Assembly (NCBI GenBank): GCA_030603445.1
Contig: JAUVXU010000008.1
Coordinates: 1 to 64,000, forward strand
Source: Methanomicrobia archaeon
GTDB lineage: Archaea > Methanobacteriota_B > Thermococci > Methanofastidiosales > NM3
Length of the DNA stretch: 64,000 bases
Direction: 5' to 3'
Within the stretch, counting starts at the first letter, position 1. The number at the start of each line of letters is the position of its first letter. A program made the translations under genes and the position numbers. Shown here one piece after another: positions 3,114-52,458 of the stretch. Under the pieces are notes generated by a model that was not told the DNA's origin, ran no database searches, and saw only the letters and a list, made by a program, of their open reading frames with translations.

Positions 3114-3704
3114 ATGCATTTTGTGATTACATTCTTAATAAAAGGCAACAAAACCCTCACCTCCCCCGATTTCTCTCTAAAGGACATTCCTGGATCAGGA
3201 GGCCGGATGGATATTATGTGCAGATGTCTCACAAGCTCCCTCCTAGTTTCACATGGTATACGTAAGAACATCGAAGTTTTCCTTTGTTTAGAAGGAGAAC
3301 CAAATCCGCCTAGATGCATAAGGGTTCGTGGGGATCAGGTACGCCATCTTTCGCCAGATGAGAGAAGCACAGCAATAATAATACAAAAAGCACTTCGAGC
3401 CTATATGCCTGGAAAAGAGATGGAATCTACACCTGGTGTTTTTATCTCGGACACAACATTTTCCGAGCTTGTGGAACGCTTTAAAGAAAGACTAATCGTG
3501 CTTGATGAGAATGGTGAAAAACTTACCAGTCGCATTCCTTTTGATGACCCTTGCTTCGTATTGGGGGATCATCTAGGTTTTTCGAAAAAAGAAGAAGAAC
3601 TACTTGCCAGGGCCAAGCTAAAAATAAGTGTGTCACCTCTAATACTACACGCTTCGCATTGTATAGTGTTAGTCCTGCATAGACTAGACGAGATGAAACT
3701 CTAA
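3114..3704 (+). CDS. trmY: tRNA (pseudouridine(54)-N1)-methyltransferase TrmY
   Basis: This 196-residue SPOUT-class enzyme methylates pseudouridine 54 in the T-loop of archaeal tRNAs using S-adenosylmethionine. Family signatures are TSPDFSLKDIPGSGGRMD near the start, RCLTSSLLVSHGIRK, the PNPPRCIRV stretch and SPDERSTAIIIQKAL. The frame is open to a TTG at 3084, but the ATG at 3114 fits the family N-terminus (MHFVITFLIKGNK) and lies about 25 nt after an AT-rich TATA-like element, suggesting a leaderless mRNA. It faces the OB-fold gene tail to tail, with a 4-bp overlap of the coding ends. Confidence 0.93.
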   Translation: MHFVITFLIKGNKTLTSPDFSLKDIPGSGGRMDIMCRCLTSSLLVSHGIRKNIEVFLCLEGEPNPPRCIRVRGDQVRHLSPDERSTAIIIQKALRAYMPGKEMESTPGVFISDTTFSELVERFKERLIVLDENGEKLTSRIPFDDPCFVLGDHLGFSKKEEELLARAKLKISVSPLILHASHCIVLVLHRLDEMKL

Positions 3705-4420
3705 AGGCGTTTGTACAAGCCGTCAACCTCGAATGCCTCGCCGCCTTCAAGTAACTCTTTAATGGAGAGCATGACGTCTATTTCATCAAGTCCGGTCTTT
3801 TGTATTATGTCTTCCTTTGATATTCCTTTGTCAGACAACGACTCAAGGACCACGCGCGTAATCTCGTCATCATCAAATACTATGTTATCCTCTTCAAATG
3901 ATCCTTCAACAGATTCTGTAAGGTCGTGGTCAGGTGAGCTTTTGGGTATGTTATAATCATCCTCATAAGTTTGTGTCGTAGGCATGTCCGGTGAATCTAA
4001 TTGTGGCGCAATAACATCCTTCCATTCGCCCTTCTCACGTAACTGTTTTATAGATAGTGCTACCTCTAAGTGAAACTTTAAGAATGTGTTAATATCTGTT
4101 TTGAAAATATTTACTGGCTGCACATAAATCTCGCCGTTGTACTCTCCAACTGTGCCAATAATATCTAGTATATCGCCTTTTTTAATCTCATCTAAACGAG
4201 TTATATCGCCACGCCAGAATTTAGCCATGATTGTTTCTGATCCATCATCGAGTACAAAATTACCATATGTCGCCTCGTCATTGATAAATTTTGATATTGC
4301 TGTTCCACAAAGCCGTACTTCCTCAAAATTACCAAAATTCGTCGATATATTTAGTAGACGCCCTTGTTGCCCTATCATTCCAAAAACGACATCCTTAATC
4401 CTAACCTTTCTTGCAGCCAC
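3701..4420 (-). CDS. RPA-like OB-fold single-stranded DNA-binding protein
   Basis: This 239-residue protein resembles the archaeal replication protein A-associated family COG3390. Residues about 35-110 form an OB fold (VRLCGTAISKF, GNFVLDDGSETIMAKFW, GDILDIIGTVGEYNGEIYV). An acidic linker at 140-180 (many D/E) follows. A C-terminal winged-helix-like segment (ISKEDIIQKTGLDEIDVMLSIKELLEGG) resembles the RPA32 C-terminus. The likely role is binding single-stranded DNA in replication or repair, together with a large RPA subunit encoded elsewhere. It overlaps trmY by 4 bp at the 3' ends. Confidence 0.8.
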   Translation of the reverse strand: MAARKVRIKDVVFGMIGQQGRLLNISTNFGNFEEVRLCGTAISKFINDEATYGNFVLDDGSETIMAKFWRGDITRLDEIKKGDILDIIGTVGEYNGEIYVQPVNIFKTDINTFLKFHLEVALSIKQLREKGEWKDVIAPQLDSPDMPTTQTYEDDYNIPKSSPDHDLTESVEGSFEEDNIVFDDDEITRVVLESLSDKGISKEDIIQKTGLDEIDVMLSIKELLEGGEAFEVDGLYKRL

Positions 4421-4489
4421 TATATCACGATACGTAGTTAATCCTATCCATTAAATAATTTTTTGTGTTAAATAGTCATGAAAAAAGAT

Positions 4490-5338
4490 TTATCCCATGT
4501 CAATGCCATAAAGATAAGATATTAAATCCTGATGTATGTATGCGGCGTCCTCTTCTGATAATATCCCTCTTTCAATGAACTGCAACGTTCTTTTAGGCAC
4601 TGTTTTTGGTCCAAGGACCGCACCAGGACGGGTTATATCGTCAATATAATCAGTCTCCATCAAAAAATGGGGTGAATCCTTTATAGCAGTAGCTATTGCA
4701 TCTTTTGAAGATACTATTGATGCCGTGACCCCGCATTCTTGTGCTTTTGTTGGTAGGGGGGGGCTAAAATGCTTGATAACTTTTTTTGGATTTCCTGCAT
4801 GTTGCACCATAACGAAAAGTTCATCGAATTTTTCCTCTGTAAAGTGTTCTGTGTGTAATTGTATGGGGCAATTCAAATCCGCTGCTCTTTTTAAATACTC
4901 CATCAAGAGATTATTTGACGCATCAAGAAGTTTAACGTCAACAGGAAAATGCGGGCGCCCAATCTCCCCAATACCATAGATGCGGCGCTCTTCGTAAAGA
5001 TTTTCTAATATATCTAAAAGATCCAATCCAAGAGAATATGCATGCTCAAGCCCATATGCACCAGCCAATCCTATAAACTCTGATGGGTGAAATCCCACTA
5101 TGGGATATGCCTTAGCATCAGTCTCAGAGTTAATAATATCTGCCAAATGTATCGTCTTCTCATATGCATTTTGGAAATCATCAACATTCTTTGCCTCAAT
5201 TCCCCAGTCGCGTGCCGTTTTTCCAACTAGGATTATGTGCGTCCCCCCGGCACTAGTGAACTGTTTAACAGCTTTTAGGCCTAGTCCATGGAGTGGATCT
5301 ATATGCATATGATTGTCTGTTATGAATTCGTTCCACAC
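4490..5338 (-). CDS. TatD-related metal-dependent hydrolase (COG1099-like)
   Basis: This 282-residue TIM-barrel hydrolase starts MWNEFITDNHMHIDP, whose HxH binds the first metal. Further ligand candidates are IVGFHPSEF, GIGEIGRP, the LHTEHF histidine pair and the late METDYID aspartate. The pattern matches the archaeal TatD-like family COG1099 rather than bacterial TatD itself. The substrate is unknown; relatives are nucleases or deacylases. It is the last gene of a leftward run behind serS (22 bp gap), so it is probably cotranscribed with surE and serS. Confidence 0.85.
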   Translation of the reverse strand: MWNEFITDNHMHIDPLHGLGLKAVKQFTSAGGTHIILVGKTARDWGIEAKNVDDFQNAYEKTIHLADIINSETDAKAYPIVGFHPSEFIGLAGAYGLEHAYSLGLDLLDILENLYEERRIYGIGEIGRPHFPVDVKLLDASNNLLMEYLKRAADLNCPIQLHTEHFTEEKFDELFVMVQHAGNPKKVIKHFSPPLPTKAQECGVTASIVSSKDAIATAIKDSPHFLMETDYIDDITRPGAVLGPKTVPKRTLQFIERGILSEEDAAYIHQDLISYLYGIDMG

Positions 5339-39596: not shown

Positions 39597-40367
39597 ATGA
39601 AACCTGAAGATATCAACATATGCATCCTTCGTATAGAAGGGACGAACAATGAACAAGAGATGTATGACGCATTCAAACGCTTAGGTACTAAACCACATCT
39701 AGTACATCTTAACGAACTTTCTTCCCTTAAACCTTATCAATGTCTAATGATACCTGGAGGATTCTCGGCAGGAGATTATATCCGCGCAGGTACTATCTTT
39801 GCCTCACGCATAAAAAGCAATTTCATGGACGAACTCAATAACTTTATCAAAGAAGGATATGCGGTAGGAGGGATATGTAATGGTTTTCAGGTCTTAGTGG
39901 AATTGGGCCTTCTACCAGGAAACCCAAAAGGTAACGGGACCATAACAGCCTGCCTATCTCGAAACGATTCTGCACGTTTTGAGTGCAGACACAGCATTCT
40001 TAAACATGTCTCTTCTAAAAAATGTGTTTTTACATCACTGCTTCCGCAAAATGAGCAGCTTATCGTGCCTTCCGCACATGCAGAAGGAAAGTTTCTACTC
40101 TCTGGCGGTAAGAAAGCGTATGAAAAATTGGAAAAAAACGGGCAGATAATATTCAAATATGTGAATTATAAAGGAGAAACGAATGCCCCATATCCATGGA
40201 ATCCAAATGGGTCCCCATATAATATCGCAGGAATATGCAACAAAAGAGGAAATGTATTTGGTATGATGCCCCATCCAGAAAGATCATTTTTTTCCAAAAA
40301 CGAGCACGGGTATTCTGGAAAAATCCTGTTTGAATCAGTAGTAAAATACATAGGAGGAACGTTCTAA
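39597..40367 (+). CDS. purQ: FGAM synthase glutaminase subunit PurQ
   Basis: This 256-residue class I glutamine amidotransferase supplies ammonia to PurL. The nucleophile is in VGGICNGFQVLVELG (Cys near residue 94) and the His-Glu pair in MMPHPERSFF near the end, with the MIPGGFSAGDYIRAG oxyanion loop. It starts 4 bp after purL ends, and its TAA shares a base with the ATG of purF (TAATG). Confidence 0.95.
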   Translation: MKPEDINICILRIEGTNNEQEMYDAFKRLGTKPHLVHLNELSSLKPYQCLMIPGGFSAGDYIRAGTIFASRIKSNFMDELNNFIKEGYAVGGICNGFQVLVELGLLPGNPKGNGTITACLSRNDSARFECRHSILKHVSSKKCVFTSLLPQNEQLIVPSAHAEGKFLLSGGKKAYEKLEKNGQIIFKYVNYKGETNAPYPWNPNGSPYNIAGICNKRGNVFGMMPHPERSFFSKNEHGYSGKILFESVVKYIGGTF

Positions 40368-48117: not shown

Positions 48118-49119
48118 ATGAAAGCAGCTATTTGTACAAAATATGGCCCCCCAGATGTTCTTCAGCTTAAAGAAATAGAAAAACCTATTCCTAGGGACAA
48201 TGAAATACTGGTAAAAGTATATGCAACAACAGTAACGGCAGGGGACGTGAGACTTCGAAGTTCCACATTTCCTCCCTTGTTCTGGCTCCCCGCGCGAATA
48301 ATGTTTGGTCTCAGAAAACCAAAAAGACCCATATTAGGGATGGAGCTATCCGGGGAAATTGAAATAGTAGGCAAGGACGTAAAACGATTTAAGAAAGGTG
48401 ACCAAGTTTTTGGAACCACCACAGGATTGAGTTCTGGTTCTTATGCCGAGTATATTTGTATACCTGAAGAACCTTTATCCGCAGGTATGTTTGGAGCTAA
48501 TGTGGTAACACTAAAACCGACTAATATGGACTATGAGGAAGCTGCCGCCGTTCCTATTGGAGGGCTTACAGCACTGCATTTTCTTAGAAAAGGAGATATC
48601 CAAAGCGGACAAAAAATTCTTATCTATGGGGCTTCGGGAAGTGTAGGCACTTTTGCGGTACAGCTTGCCAAGTACTTTGGAGCAGAAGTTACCGGGGTAT
48701 GCAGTACCGCAAATTTAGAATTAGTGAAATCTCTGGGAGCCGATAAGGTGATTGATTACACTAAAGAGGATTTTAACAAAAGCGGCGAGACCTATGATGT
48801 TATTTTTGACACGGTAGGTAAGAGTTCGTTTTCAGATTGTAAAAGATCGCTAAAGAAAAATGGGTTCATTCTTTTAACCACCCCGAGGCTGTCATATATT
48901 GTTCAAGGCCTTTGGTCTTCAATGAAAGTAATAACAGGGGGAGCATCCGAAAAGCCCGAAGATTTAAACTTCCTCAAAGAGCTTATTGAAGCGGGAAAGA
49001 TAAAATCAGCCATAGATAGACGCCATCCGTTGGAACAAATTGTCGAGGCTCACCGGTATGTTGACAAAGGACACAAAAAAGGAAATGTAGTAATCACTGT
49101 GGGACATAATAACAAATAA
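48118..49119 (+). CDS. MDR-family NAD(P)-dependent oxidoreductase (quinone reductase-like)
   Basis: This 333-residue medium-chain reductase has a GroES-like N-terminus and a Rossmann domain with [18 protein letters not shown]. The catalytic zinc ligands of alcohol dehydrogenases are missing, placing it with zeta-crystallin/quinone oxidoreductases. It looks bacterial in style and sits at the edge of a segment of unrelated small genes, so acquisition by transfer is likely. A flavodoxin follows 12 bp later, hinting at a joint redox role. Confidence 0.85.
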
Positions 49120-49131
49120 ATAATAAAAAGG

Positions 49132-49587
49132 ATGGGAACAAAAGTGAAAACGTTAATAATATGTAAATCCATACATAACGGGAACACAGAAAGAATTGCT
49201 AAAAAGATGGCTAAAATATTGAATGCTGATTTGATAGAACCTGAAGAATTAAACAATATTATGGAATATGATCTAATAGGTTTTGGTTCTGGCATTTATA
49301 ATTCTAAACATCATCAATCTCTATTAGATCTAGCAGATAAATTACCAGACTTCAAAGAGAAAAAAGTTTTTGTTTTTTCAACATCAGGTGTAATACAAAA
49401 GCGATTTCACAGAAGTTTAAAGGGAAAACTAGAGGAAAAAAATGCGGTAATAGTTGATGAATTCTTTTGTAAAGGGTTTAATAAAAACAGTGTGTTGAAA
49501 TATATTGGTGGAATGAATAAAGGGAGACCTAATGAAGATGATCTCAAAAAAGCAGAGGATTTCGCAAAGAAAATGAAAGAGAAATGA
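49132..49587 (+). CDS. Flavodoxin-family protein
   Basis: This 151-residue flavodoxin-like protein has the FMN phosphate loop in KSIHNGNTERIAKKMAK and the aromatic-bearing loops IGFGSGIYNSKHH and FVFSTSGVI. Typical length for a small flavodoxin, an electron carrier or FMN-binding reductase. It follows the MDR gene by 12 bp and probably shares its transcript. A hairpin and an attC-like repeat lie downstream. Confidence 0.88.
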   Translation: MGTKVKTLIICKSIHNGNTERIAKKMAKILNADLIEPEELNNIMEYDLIGFGSGIYNSKHHQSLLDLADKLPDFKEKKVFVFSTSGVIQKRFHRSLKGKLEEKNAVIVDEFFCKGFNKNSVLKYIGGMNKGRPNEDDLKKAEDFAKKMKEK

Positions 49588-49714: not shown

Positions 49715-49773
49715 AAATGAGTTTACTCTCTCTTGGCCTCTTTTGTCGCTGGTAAATTAATGGCGCTACGAAC

Positions 49774-49858
49774 GGTTAACACCAGGATTATGAGGGATCT
49801 GCGAAACAAACTTGAGTGAGAGAGTACAACGAATCGGGCCTCATAAGCCGTGTTATAT
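49774..49858 (-). repeat. attC-like imperfect palindrome A
   Basis: The outer arms GGTTAAC (49774-49780) and GTTATAT (49852-49858) frame an inner pair TTATGAGG / CCTCATAA. Unequal unpaired spacers lie between the outer and inner arms, the R-box/L-box layout of integron recombination sites. The middle shares an ACAAACTTGAGTG-like core with repeats B and C. It starts about 80 bp after the stop of the leftward HD gene, the place an attC has in a cassette. Outer boxes each have one mismatch to the consensus. Confidence 0.6.
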
Positions 49859-49939
49859 GAAGTGAACGAAGCGCGAGGAATAAGAGTGCAGTATCCCGGG
49901 GCGACTGAAATGAACGAAAGCGTTGGACTGGGAGCAAAT

Positions 49940-50464
49940 TTAGGTTTCTGCAATCCCATTATATTTTTTAACCAATTCTTTGTAGAGGACTTCATCTTTT
50001 ATTACGTCTCTAGAATTTTCAATGAAATACTTCAATTTTTCAAACAGCCATTTTGATAATTCTTTTGTTGAAGCAAGATGATAATAATCAATATTATCAA
50101 AAAAATCAGCAGTTTTAATGATTAAAGCATCTTTTCCAGCTTTGCGACAACGCATGAAATTCTCTTTGTATCTTTCAGTTTTATCCTTAATACTTTCGTC
50201 AAAGCTATTTGCTTCAACTAACTTAGCAATTTTACTGCCGAATTTTGATTTAACTTCCTCAATTTTTGTGTCAGTATCCTCAACCACATCATGCAAAATA
50301 GCTGCGACCACAATGTCTTCATCATATCCTAAATTATAAAGATGAAGTCCGATTCTAATACTATGCAAAATTACTGGCTTAGGATTTTTCCCAGATTCAT
50401 GGATTGTAAAAACTAGAAACTTTATTGCTTCTTCAATTTGTTTATCAACTTCAGGACTTTTCAC
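49940..50464 (-). CDS. HD-domain phosphohydrolase, SpoT/Mesh1-like
   Basis: This 174-residue protein is a compact HD-domain enzyme. It has HSIRIGLHLYNLG, the AAILHDVVEDTDTKIEEV motif (metal-binding HD and the ED pair typical of (p)ppGpp hydrolases) and LIIKTADFFDNI. It may hydrolyse alarmones or NADPH-like phosphates, but family members differ and no synthetase domain exists here. Start is GTG at 50464, about 27 nt after TTTTTATAAT, so it is leaderless with its own promoter. It is flanked by attC-like repeats A and B. Confidence 0.85.
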   Translation of the reverse strand: MKSPEVDKQIEEAIKFLVFTIHESGKNPKPVILHSIRIGLHLYNLGYDEDIVVAAILHDVVEDTDTKIEEVKSKFGSKIAKLVEANSFDESIKDKTERYKENFMRCRKAGKDALIIKTADFFDNIDYYHLASTKELSKWLFEKLKYFIENSRDVIKDEVLYKELVKKYNGIAET

Positions 50465-50515
50465 AAGTATTAGATAAATTGATAGGTATTATAAAAATTG
50501 TTCTAGTCCAATACC

Positions 50516-50603
50516 GTATAACATCAAGATTATGAGAAATTTACACAGCAAATTTGAGTGGAACGAGATGCAACCGAGCGTAACGACATAATCCTTGTTA
50601 AGT
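50516..50603 (-). repeat. attC-like imperfect palindrome B
   Basis: Outer boxes GTATAAC (50516-50522) and GTTAAGT (50597-50603), inner arms GATTATG and CATAATC, with unpaired spacers ATCAA and CTT. One outer box matches the GTTRRRY consensus exactly, the other has one mismatch. The core CAAATTTGAGTGGAACGAGA resembles A and C. It sits 60 bp after the stop of the leftward VOC gene and before the HD gene promoter. Confidence 0.65.
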
Positions 50604-50663
50604 GAGGCGAAGCTAGAGTGCAACGTCCCGAAGGGCTGGCGAGAGTTTAAAAAAATAAAATCG

Positions 50664-51053
50664 CTACTCTTTTAGTTCAGAGAAAACCAAAATATACCCA
50701 TTGAGATCTCTTACGGCAAACTCTTTTGCCCCGTAAAATGTCTCTCTCATATCTCTGACAATTTCAACTTTCTCTTTAACAGAATCATACAAGGATTGCA
50801 CATCTTCTACTTCGATATAAAACGTTAAGCTTGCGCCAATTTTCTTTCCCTTGAGAACAGGCATCTCTTTGACCAAGCTTTCTTCTTTCTGAAAGAAAAT
50901 TTGTACACCATCTGCTTTCACAACAGCCCAGTCAAGTGGTTCATCAAGAGAATCCCCCTTGTTTGCAAACTTAAAGTTGAAAATGTCTTTATACCATTTT
51001 ACGGTTGCATTTACATCGGCGACCATAATATTTGGCGTGAGTGTTTTGTACAT
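50664..51053 (-). CDS. VOC-family (glyoxalase/bleomycin resistance-like) protein
   Basis: This 129-residue protein has the paired beta-alpha-beta-beta-beta modules of the vicinal oxygen chelate fold. LTPNIMVADVNATVKWYKDIF opens it and REFFYG-like text (TFYGAKEFAVRDLNGYILVF) closes the second module. VOC proteins include glyoxalase I, dioxygenases and antibiotic-binding proteins; the substrate is unknown. A TATA-like TTATATTTAA lies about 25 nt before the ATG at 51053, so it has its own leaderless promoter. It lies between attC-like repeats B and C. This family is common in integron cassettes. Confidence 0.88.
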   Translation of the reverse strand: MYKTLTPNIMVADVNATVKWYKDIFNFKFANKGDSLDEPLDWAVVKADGVQIFFQKEESLVKEMPVLKGKKIGASLTFYIEVEDVQSLYDSVKEKVEIVRDMRETFYGAKEFAVRDLNGYILVFSELKE

Positions 51054-51105
51054 ATTATTTAGTTAATACCTTAAATATAATAAATGTTTTGTTTTTTTAA
51101 ATTTC

Positions 51106-51195
51106 ACTTAACATCACGATTAAAAGAAGTTCGGCGCAACCAAATTTGGATGAAGAAACCTACAAGTTTTCGGAATCTTTTAATCGCTGTTAAGC
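51106..51195 (-). repeat. attC-like imperfect palindrome C
   Basis: Outer boxes ACTTAAC (51106-51112) and GTTAAGC (51189-51195) match RYYYAAC and GTTRRRY perfectly. Inner arms CGATTAAAAGA and TCTTTTAATCG are a perfect 11-bp match. Spacers ATCA and CT are unpaired, giving the R-bubble-L structure of attC. A second, weaker hairpin (TTGAATTTT / AAAAATTCAA, about 51207-51252) follows. This is the best-formed of the three copies. No intact gene ends beside it on the right. Confidence 0.7.
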
Positions 51196-51537
51196 TCTCC
51201 ACAGGATTGAATTTTAGTGCAACGTTCCGTAGCGAAGCGGAGGAAAAATTCAAAGTAAATTTGAAGTCCGTTCCTTTCAAAGAGCTTTATCGATACATCA
51301 AGAACAAGAATCAAAGGGTAGTTTTCTTATAATTATCTTCTATATCATAAAAAAAAATCCCGATTTTTTCAGGAGTTGTTTTTATTTTTGTTGAAGATTT
51401 GATTATGTACTTATAACCCTAACTACGCTCTTTTTATCTCCTATAAGCATTGAATCATTTTTTGTTGCCATCAAAAAAAGTATGCCATCAGTAAGGTATA
51501 TATATGAATAAAATTTACATATTTAAGAGGTGTACTA
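51196..51537. other. Gap right of repeat C, possible gene remnant
   Basis: These 340 bp hold a weak hairpin and a short rightward frame ending at 51332 (tail KELYRYIKNKNQRVVFL) that looks like the end of a protein but has no start or promoter outside the repeat. The last 60 bp contain TATA-like ATATATATG sequence for the lipoprotein gene. Otherwise nothing recognisable. Confidence 0.4.
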
Positions 51538-52458
51538 ATGAAAAAAGCACTATTTTTAAGTTTACTTATCATAGCACCATTACTTACATTATCAGGATGT
51601 ATTAGTGGTGACGAGAATATAGATGCCTGGAATGACCAGATAGGAACTATCAATTCGTATATAGATACGGCCAATTCCATGCAAGGCGAGATAAATGATG
51701 CTCTAGACCAAGGACATTACGACCTTGCGATTAGCAAGATAAATGATGCGATCTCAAAATATCAGACCGCCCTAAACGAGATAATAAAACTAGAGCCCAT
51801 AGCCCAAGACCTTGACAAGGATTTCCTTGATGATTATGTTGATGTGTGGCAGCTCCAAACAAACAAAGTTATAGAGAGCATTGAACATCTTAAAAAAATG
51901 GTATATACTGAACAATTTAGCATTGAACTTGATAATCTTATCCTTATCTTTAGTGGTGCCGACCAGCAGTACGTTGATGCAGTAGGATACTTCAATAATA
52001 GCAATTATGCTGCATGCGTATCTACAGCTGAACTTGCAAAACAAAAGTACAATATGATGGCAGGATATGCAGACAAGATGTCGGAGTTATCCCAACTACT
52101 CAATGTTGATCATGTGAAGCAATATGCATCATATTGTGTATCAATGATTGAGAATGCAGACATATCATTAGACAATCTTATGCTAAGTGCAAATGCCGCC
52201 TACGTCTCTGATTGGGACAATGCAAACTATTACCTTGGATTACAAAATACATATAACTCTGCTTACAATGCAGATTACGATAAAATAATTGGAATCGAGA
52301 ATACGTATCCTGAAGACTTCCCTGCACAAGGTAAAGCATTGCAATCTCTTTACAATATGTATTTTTCAAAGAAAGAACAGGCAGAACAGGCAGCTACAAG
52401 TTACACAAACACTATGAATAATATAGAAGAAGAGAATTCTGACTTCTTTGAGGAATAA
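51538..52458 (+). CDS. Helical surface lipoprotein
   Basis: This 306-residue protein has a signal with lipobox LSGC at residues 18-21, so it is lipid-anchored outside. The mature part is almost all helix, with coiled-coil-like repeats (NDALDQGHYDLAISKINDAISKY and others) resembling tetratricopeptide or DUF-type helical scaffolds. No family is recognised. AGAGGTG lies before the ATG at 51538. It ends 70 bp before the tRNA genes, which run the other way. Confidence 0.65.
   Translation: MKKALFLSLLIIAPLLTLSGCISGDENIDAWNDQIGTINSYIDTANSMQGEINDALDQGHYDLAISKINDAISKYQTALNEIIKLEPIAQDLDKDFLDDYVDVWQLQTNKVIESIEHLKKMVYTEQFSIELDNLILIFSGADQQYVDAVGYFNNSNYAACVSTAELAKQKYNMMAGYADKMSELSQLLNVDHVKQYASYCVSMIENADISLDNLMLSANAAYVSDWDNANYYLGLQNTYNSAYNADYDKIIGIENTYPEDFPAQGKALQSLYNMYFSKKEQAEQAATSYTNTMNNIEEENSDFFEE

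Follow-up and report, generated by a model that had tools for sequence, protein, structure and literature searches.

The attC site of an integron folds as a single strand, its R and L boxes pairing to form a hairpin; the integrase cuts the G^TTRRRY sequence of the R' box to excise or insert a circular cassette. In inverse integrons, as in Treponema, the integrase and the cassettes point in the same direction. The integrase IntI recombines the folded single-strand attC at G^TT and its I2 helix is said to dock the extrahelical bases (PMC7790495, PMC9668308). It is through this helix that integron integrases are considered to have become able to recombine single-stranded attC, and the study of this step is said to be limited by a lack of intermediates (PMC7790495). 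Nine archaeal phyla were reported in 2022 to contain integrons, most of them CALINs (cassette arrays lacking a linked integrase), and the archaeal IntIs are stated to have the IntI domain (Ghaly et al. 2022, PMC9668308); the main text of that report names neither Thermococci nor Methanofastidiosales. Arrays without IntI are labelled as CALINs by IntegronFinder 2 (PMC9024848).

The window studied here is the whole stretch of 64,000 nucleotides from a methanofastidiosal draft genome (contig C24). Within 1.43 kb it holds three imperfect palindromes of 85-90 bp on the minus strand: site A (49772..49861), site B (50514..50606) and site C (51104..51198). We read these as attC sites bounding an HD-domain and a glyoxalase cassette, and thus as a CALIN in an archaeal chromosome, with a probability of roughly 85%; the recombination is inferred and the site models are our own. 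The CALIN criteria are met, as at least two attC sites lie less than 4 kb apart without an adjoining integron integrase, and the genes, both here and in a second cluster on contig C11, run in one orientation with an attC after each. The locus resembles the CALINs of archaeal metagenome-assembled genomes, in which small genes bounded by attC share one orientation and mostly lack an integrase in cis (PMC9668308). With classical integrons (class 1, Vibrio) it shares the R''/L''/L'/R' palindrome, the GTT cut-site box and the arrangement as cassette arrays, whereas the R' consensus of its site family is GTTAKVY-GAAAT and not GTTRRRY.

Along the minus strand, which encodes both genes, site C comes first, followed by the glyoxalase gene, site B, the HD gene and site A. 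The first cassette gene (49940..50464, minus strand) encodes an HD-domain protein of 174 aa (Pfam HD_4, PF13328, E 6e-13) and stops 81 bp before site A; the second (50664..51053, minus strand) encodes a protein of 129 aa from the glyoxalase/bleomycin-resistance superfamily (PF00903, E 3e-10) and stops 60 bp before site B. Site C is the attC of the preceding cassette, the gene of which is unrecognisable. We sought relatives of the HD protein in viral contigs and found none. Read on the gene strand, site A has the boxes R'' ATATAAC and R' GTTAACC (6/7 matches to RYYYAAC and 6/7 to GTTRRRY), site B has ACTTAAC and GTTATAC (7/7 and 6/7), and site C has GCTTAAC and GTTAAGT followed by GAAAT (7/7 for both boxes). 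An earlier sequence-only reading had located the three palindromes and their boxes correctly, including the perfect boxes of copy C, and its description of homologous copies in one orientation beside two small leftward genes also held.

That reading had suggested fold prediction as a further check; the fold energy stood out for one site only. The minus-strand DNA fold of site C has a z of −3.84 and none of 200 shuffles was as good, whereas the values for site A (−0.9) and site B (0.0) were unremarkable; as the folding energy is significant for C only, it is by itself no proof for A and B. The folds of sites B and C both contain a two-nucleotide bulge on the R' side. A box-plus-stem detector ranked site C at the top of the whole window and above the best match in each of 8 shuffles; in its strict form it did not distinguish A and B in the window. 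Judged from the sequences, it is the homology together with the covarying helices that raises all three sites above chance.

Upstream of each site we also found AGTGCAACGTCCCG-like motifs, read from the sequence on the minus strand: the decayed CGGGATACTGCACT upstream of site A (49885..49898), CGGGACGTTGCACT upstream of site B (50617..50630) and CGGAACGTTGCACT upstream of site C (51216..51229). All three lie on the R'' side, inside the cassette and not past R'. We infer that they are probably the 3' end of an older attC. A CGGGACGTTGCACT-like motif occurs 10-35 nt upstream of R'' in four sites of the genome (one at about 11216-11225 of L020) and may represent the 3' half of an earlier attC that remained after cassettes fused.

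A search by DNA similarity alone gave one further copy in the genome in addition to chance matches. From this copy and sites A, B and C we built a covariance model (R1), and a second model (R2) was built from 12 sites; the E-values of both are rough. Two loci of another genome (L015 and L018 of G007), considered as copies of the family, turned out to be coding sequence. The R1 and R2 scores were 84 and 69 bits for site A, 91.7 and 80 bits for site B and 93 and 83 bits for site C, all three being training members of R1. Among the sites of the genome that were not used in training, R1 scored C11:36097 at 54 bits and others below that, with sites on contigs C11 and C8. Across the whole genome R2 matched A-C, C11:36097 and C11:33259 with E between 5e-13 and 4e-10, C8:40822 with 4.9e-8 and C11:31658 with 1.9e-6; C11:25992 was weaker (0.04), and C11:27171 and one further site on C41 were also weak matches. 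The C11 sites are all on the minus strand and extend over ∼10 kb.

The sites form three clusters, on C24, C11 and C8, and most of them follow a cassette-like gene of the same strand; the intervals between them contain four sense and no antisense ORFs. The genes of the C11 cluster encode GNAT acetyltransferases, two DUF3795 proteins, a methyltransferase, a DUF6144 protein, a glyoxalase-zinc ribbon protein, and NIF3 and BtrH_N-type proteins; nearly all are on the minus strand, and they are typical small cassette cargo. A RuBisCO-like gene (4393-5817 of L020, plus strand) lies inside this cluster on the opposite strand.

The array is followed by TruD, a SpoIIM-like protein and a Tes-like radical SAM protein, and a HAD hydrolase precedes the array. 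In G004, a member of the same family, the order is HAD, EamA transporter, lipoproteins, TruD, SpoIIM-like and Tes-like, without the array; a second family member, G003, has the same order, again without the array, as far as its contig extends. The comparison with relatives, which had been proposed for finding cassette-precise breakpoints, thus gave only part of what was hoped for: the whole array is absent at the same place in two family members, but these are too diverged for a cassette-precise reading. It shows the array to be an insertion specific to the lineage of the host. Between the HAD gene and the array the window carries alcohol dehydrogenase and flavodoxin genes (48118-49587, plus strand) where G003 and G004 have the EamA transporter gene, so these two genes may belong to the same island. 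A lipoprotein without a Pfam match is encoded at 51538-52458, and G004 has two tandem relatives of it beside TruD.

The same setting bears on whether the array might be mis-binned or chimeric bacterial DNA and not part of an archaeal chromosome. The assembly is a draft of 48 contigs, the same site family is common in Patescibacteria, and in a related genome a contig with family sites (G020:C115) looks like a contaminant because of its RecF-like gene. On the other hand the array is flanked by archaeal core genes that occur in the same order in other family members, contig C11 carries a PcrB-family (GGGP synthase) gene, and the family is present on three separate contigs of a genome of 1.62 Mb that is 96% complete with a contamination of 0.02%. 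We consider mis-binning very improbable and retain the CALIN in an archaeal chromosome.

Across the archaeal phylum only 2 of 115 genomes gave a match at E ≤ 1e-4, and clear family sites were found only in the host and on the probable contaminant G020:C115. This near-absence indicates that the arrays are a lineage-specific acquisition. We had examined G020:C115 as a complete archaeal integron and rejected it, since the RecF-like gene and a contamination of 6% make it a likely contaminant; the contig is used only as an example of attC. A weak member of the family, at 4411-4503 of an archaeal contig from the same order (G013:C200, L068), lies 7 bp after the stop codon of a methyltransferase gene and is possibly a lone cassette. 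A distant blastn search of three sites against plasmids gave no match, which indicates that the family does not belong to the clinical cassette attCs.

The closest arrays were found in Patescibacteria, a group of tiny uncultured bacteria. R1, trained on the host genome only, matched an array of the Kerfeldbacteria genome L100 (E 9e-6 in 1.07 Mb), and R2 detected further sites there, all on the minus strand behind GNAT, RidA, ACT-domain-like and other small genes (gene names read from the translations). We then surveyed 379 genomes of the phylum to which L100 (Candidatus Kerfeldbacteria) belongs; 46 of them had matches at E ≤ 1e-4. In 40 Patescibacteria regions, several of which end at contig ends, there were 109 R2 sites (E ≤ 0.01). 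Neighbouring sites within 4 kb were on the same strand in 61 of 64 pairs with a median spacing of 1.03 kb. The longest ORF between sites was in sense orientation in 53 of 60 intervals and antisense in 5, and the median distance from stop codon to site was 58 nt.

The pairing of the sites was compared with shuffled and slid controls. For the 12 sites of the second model 90% of the cells were paired and we counted 35 double-change cells, compared to 12.8 in shuffles, whereas slid controls reached at most 51% paired. For the 109 Patescibacteria sites, none of which was used in training, 91% of the cells were paired with 312 double-change cells, compared to 84.8 in shuffles, and slid structures were at most 45% paired. 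As the alignments were fitted to the structure of the model, more weight should be given to the slide control than to the percentage of paired cells. The inner L boxes stay paired while their sequence varies under both controls. Conservation stops just past GTTRNRYGAAAT, like cassette junctions; it ends sharply after GTTAKVYGAAAT and, on the opposite side, just before RYMTAAC, and the family prefers the boxes RYMTAAC and GTTAKVY. A pairwise gapped-identity test of the flanks was uninformative and position-anchored conservation was used in its place; by this measure conservation is at background level past GTTRNRYGAAA. Together these edges, the covariation, the one-strand spacing and the sense ORFs are properties of attC sites in cassette arrays.

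Two readings without integrons have to be weighed against these observations. A palindrome of the MITE or REP type, lying behind genes by chance, would account for copies that are homologous over their full length and for similarity that extends past the R'' box. The earlier reading had raised this similarity beyond the outer box as an objection; it does exist, but on the R'' side within the cassette, and past the other box there is only background. The pairs moreover covary while the sequence diverges, no target-site duplications were noticed, and the relatives are one-orientation arrays that alternate with sense genes beside integrases. Two of the outcomes that would have counted against attC were not found. 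In place of a repeat spread genome-wide without genes there are only three clusters in 1.6 Mb, mostly behind cassette-like genes, and the edge of the family falls at the GTT box and not outside it, where what we measured is a conservation edge. Such a repeat is thus a poor explanation with little left to support it. If the sites were terminators of transcription or structured RNA elements, alike by chance or convergence, their position ∼10-160 nt behind stop codons, on the coding strand, would fit. However, the Rfam search gave no match for the sites, there is no U-run, the unpaired middle is long, the outer AAC/GTT boxes are conserved with GAAAT beyond the hairpin, and the outer box with GAAAT also occurs as a half-site without hairpin beside integrases. 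We find this hardly credible, and attC remains the reading that we follow below.

For the integrase we searched the host genome for the IntI-type recombinase, as the earlier reading had proposed. The expectation was not met: there was no IntI, only XerA (contig C5) and a broken remnant, and this 96% complete genome contains no intact integrase of the array-linked kind. The remnant on C8 (∼39907-40319; 9908-10320 of L074) contains stops and a frameshift and lies 0.5 kb before the C8 site. It matches integrases lacking the IntI insert best, but it is itself too short to show whether an insert was present, since the missing part includes most of the insert region. The left edge of the fragment abuts an AsnC-like gene without its N-terminal part, and a gene of 131 aa and the attC follow.

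A scan of genomes with a fragment of a related integrase gave 80 loci. In a Spirochaetota genome (L080) the sole R2 site lies 0.85 kb behind an insert-less integrase and in a Bacteroidia genome (L089) 2.1 kb behind one, with one or two genes in between; the TIGR02249 scores of these integrases, 201 and 211, are below the cut-off of 265. In the 40 Patescibacteria regions, several of them cut at contig ends, tblastn found an integrase in 16 and no IntI, despite IntI queries. All 16 are on the opposite strand upstream of the array, which is the canonical divergent layout; the chance of this layout was set to 0.25 for each region. In all 13 measurable array integrases 65-68 residues separate the KDR and HxLRH motifs, compared to 107 residues in all 8 measurable IntIs, and the alignment has a gap of ∼41 residues, in two parts, at the position of the IntI insert with I2. 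This insert is also absent from the XerA of the host and from the integrases of L080, L089, L065, L088 and L101. The integrases linked to the site family of the window thus differ from classical ones, and from the archaeal integrons of PMC9668308, in lacking the IntI-specific domain.

An attI-like core, AGTTRNRYGAAA, was present beside the integrases of L080, L089, L065, L066, L100, L249, L254, L262 and L268. It lies between integrase and first gene in L080, L089, L065 and L066 and in a divergent layout in L100; for the array integrase of L249 and L254 the site reads AACGAGTTRNRYGAAA. Counting both strands there are 13 copies of the core in 2.1 Mb, one of them near a true IntI (L142). The Patescibacteria relatives accordingly resemble classical integrons in both their divergent integrase and their attI-like core. 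L080, L089, L066 and, in outline, C8 resemble inverse integrons, with integrase, attI-like core, cassette and attC in one direction, although the full-length same-direction integrases of L080 and L089 differ from IntI in having no IntI insert. In a contig of the same archaeal order (G005:C90, L065) an insert-less integrase at 3352-4300 has a frame broken near the C-terminus, and after it come AACGAGTTGTGCGAAATGGC and a gene that the contig end truncates; this is likely a decayed integron head. The first genes behind the same-direction integrases of L066, L089 and L080 are DNA methyltransferase-like and restriction-like, and some same-direction integrons may carry restriction-modification cassettes. 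At 5426-5803 of L084 a restriction-enzyme-like N-terminus is fused in frame to the C-terminal part of a tyrosine recombinase.

The array-linked integrases score near the XerA model (NF040815) and share with XerA the lack of the I2 insert. Nevertheless a PMSF tree separates IntI, the Patescibacteria array integrases and the same-direction ones from XerC/D and the XerA of the host by a branch with support 100/99, and the array-linked ones, unlike the Xer proteins, adjoin cassette arrays. IntI forms one clade (100/100), support for the branch order among the integrases is weak (86/68), and the tree is drawn merely with a midpoint root. As the tree joins the insert-less integrases with IntI, they could be missing intermediates in the origin of integrons. 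An AlphaFold2 model of the L089 integrase (pLDDT 82, pTM 0.54) matched XerA (5hxy) best and the Vibrio IntI (2a3v) second.

These results leave two candidates for the writer of the array. The sites could be ordinary attC written elsewhere by a classical IntI with the I2 insert, the insert-less integrases being bystanders or serving another purpose. In favour of this, many archaeal attCs can serve as substrates for IntI1 (PMC9668308), CALINs without any integrase nearby are common (PMC9024848), and the integrase fragment of the host genome is broken. Against this, no IntI exceeded the TIGR02249 cut-off in any of the 21 genomes of the order, R2 found no site in 11 IntI loci, IntI is missing from the Patescibacteria regions in which every integrase found is divergent and upstream, and the attI-like core stands between insert-less integrase and first cassette. 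We regard a classical IntI as unlikely here. Our own suggestion, which we hold to be only slightly more likely than not, is that the insert-less integrases recombine attC and represent an integron class that is frequent in Patescibacteria and also occurs in some archaea and other bacteria, and that the window array is a relic of this class.

If so, the window cassettes would have been written by an integrase of the class without the IntI insert. In Patescibacteria this class stands divergently beside arrays with attC of the same family, and in a few other genomes it points in cassette direction. These enzymes would use the sites perhaps with the help of a two-base asymmetry of the spacers. The cassettes possibly came from Patescibacteria and would now be stranded because the local integrase is broken, both points being inferred. 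With only a broken fragment, apparently of such an integrase, beside the C8 attC the array is probably a fixed relic, unless it is mobilised in trans.

We found no report of Patescibacteria integrons or of attC arrays with insert-less integrases; subscription papers and preprints were outside the search and priority is not established. Arrays that combine attC, an attI-like core and a divergent insert-less integrase would supply the intermediates named as missing, in a form testable in E. coli. Pipelines that insist on the IntI domain would then count whole integrons as CALINs and underestimate the integrons of Patescibacteria and archaea. For the host, the finding would add cassette capture to a lineage whose phylum also has apparent Thermococcus-type genomes.
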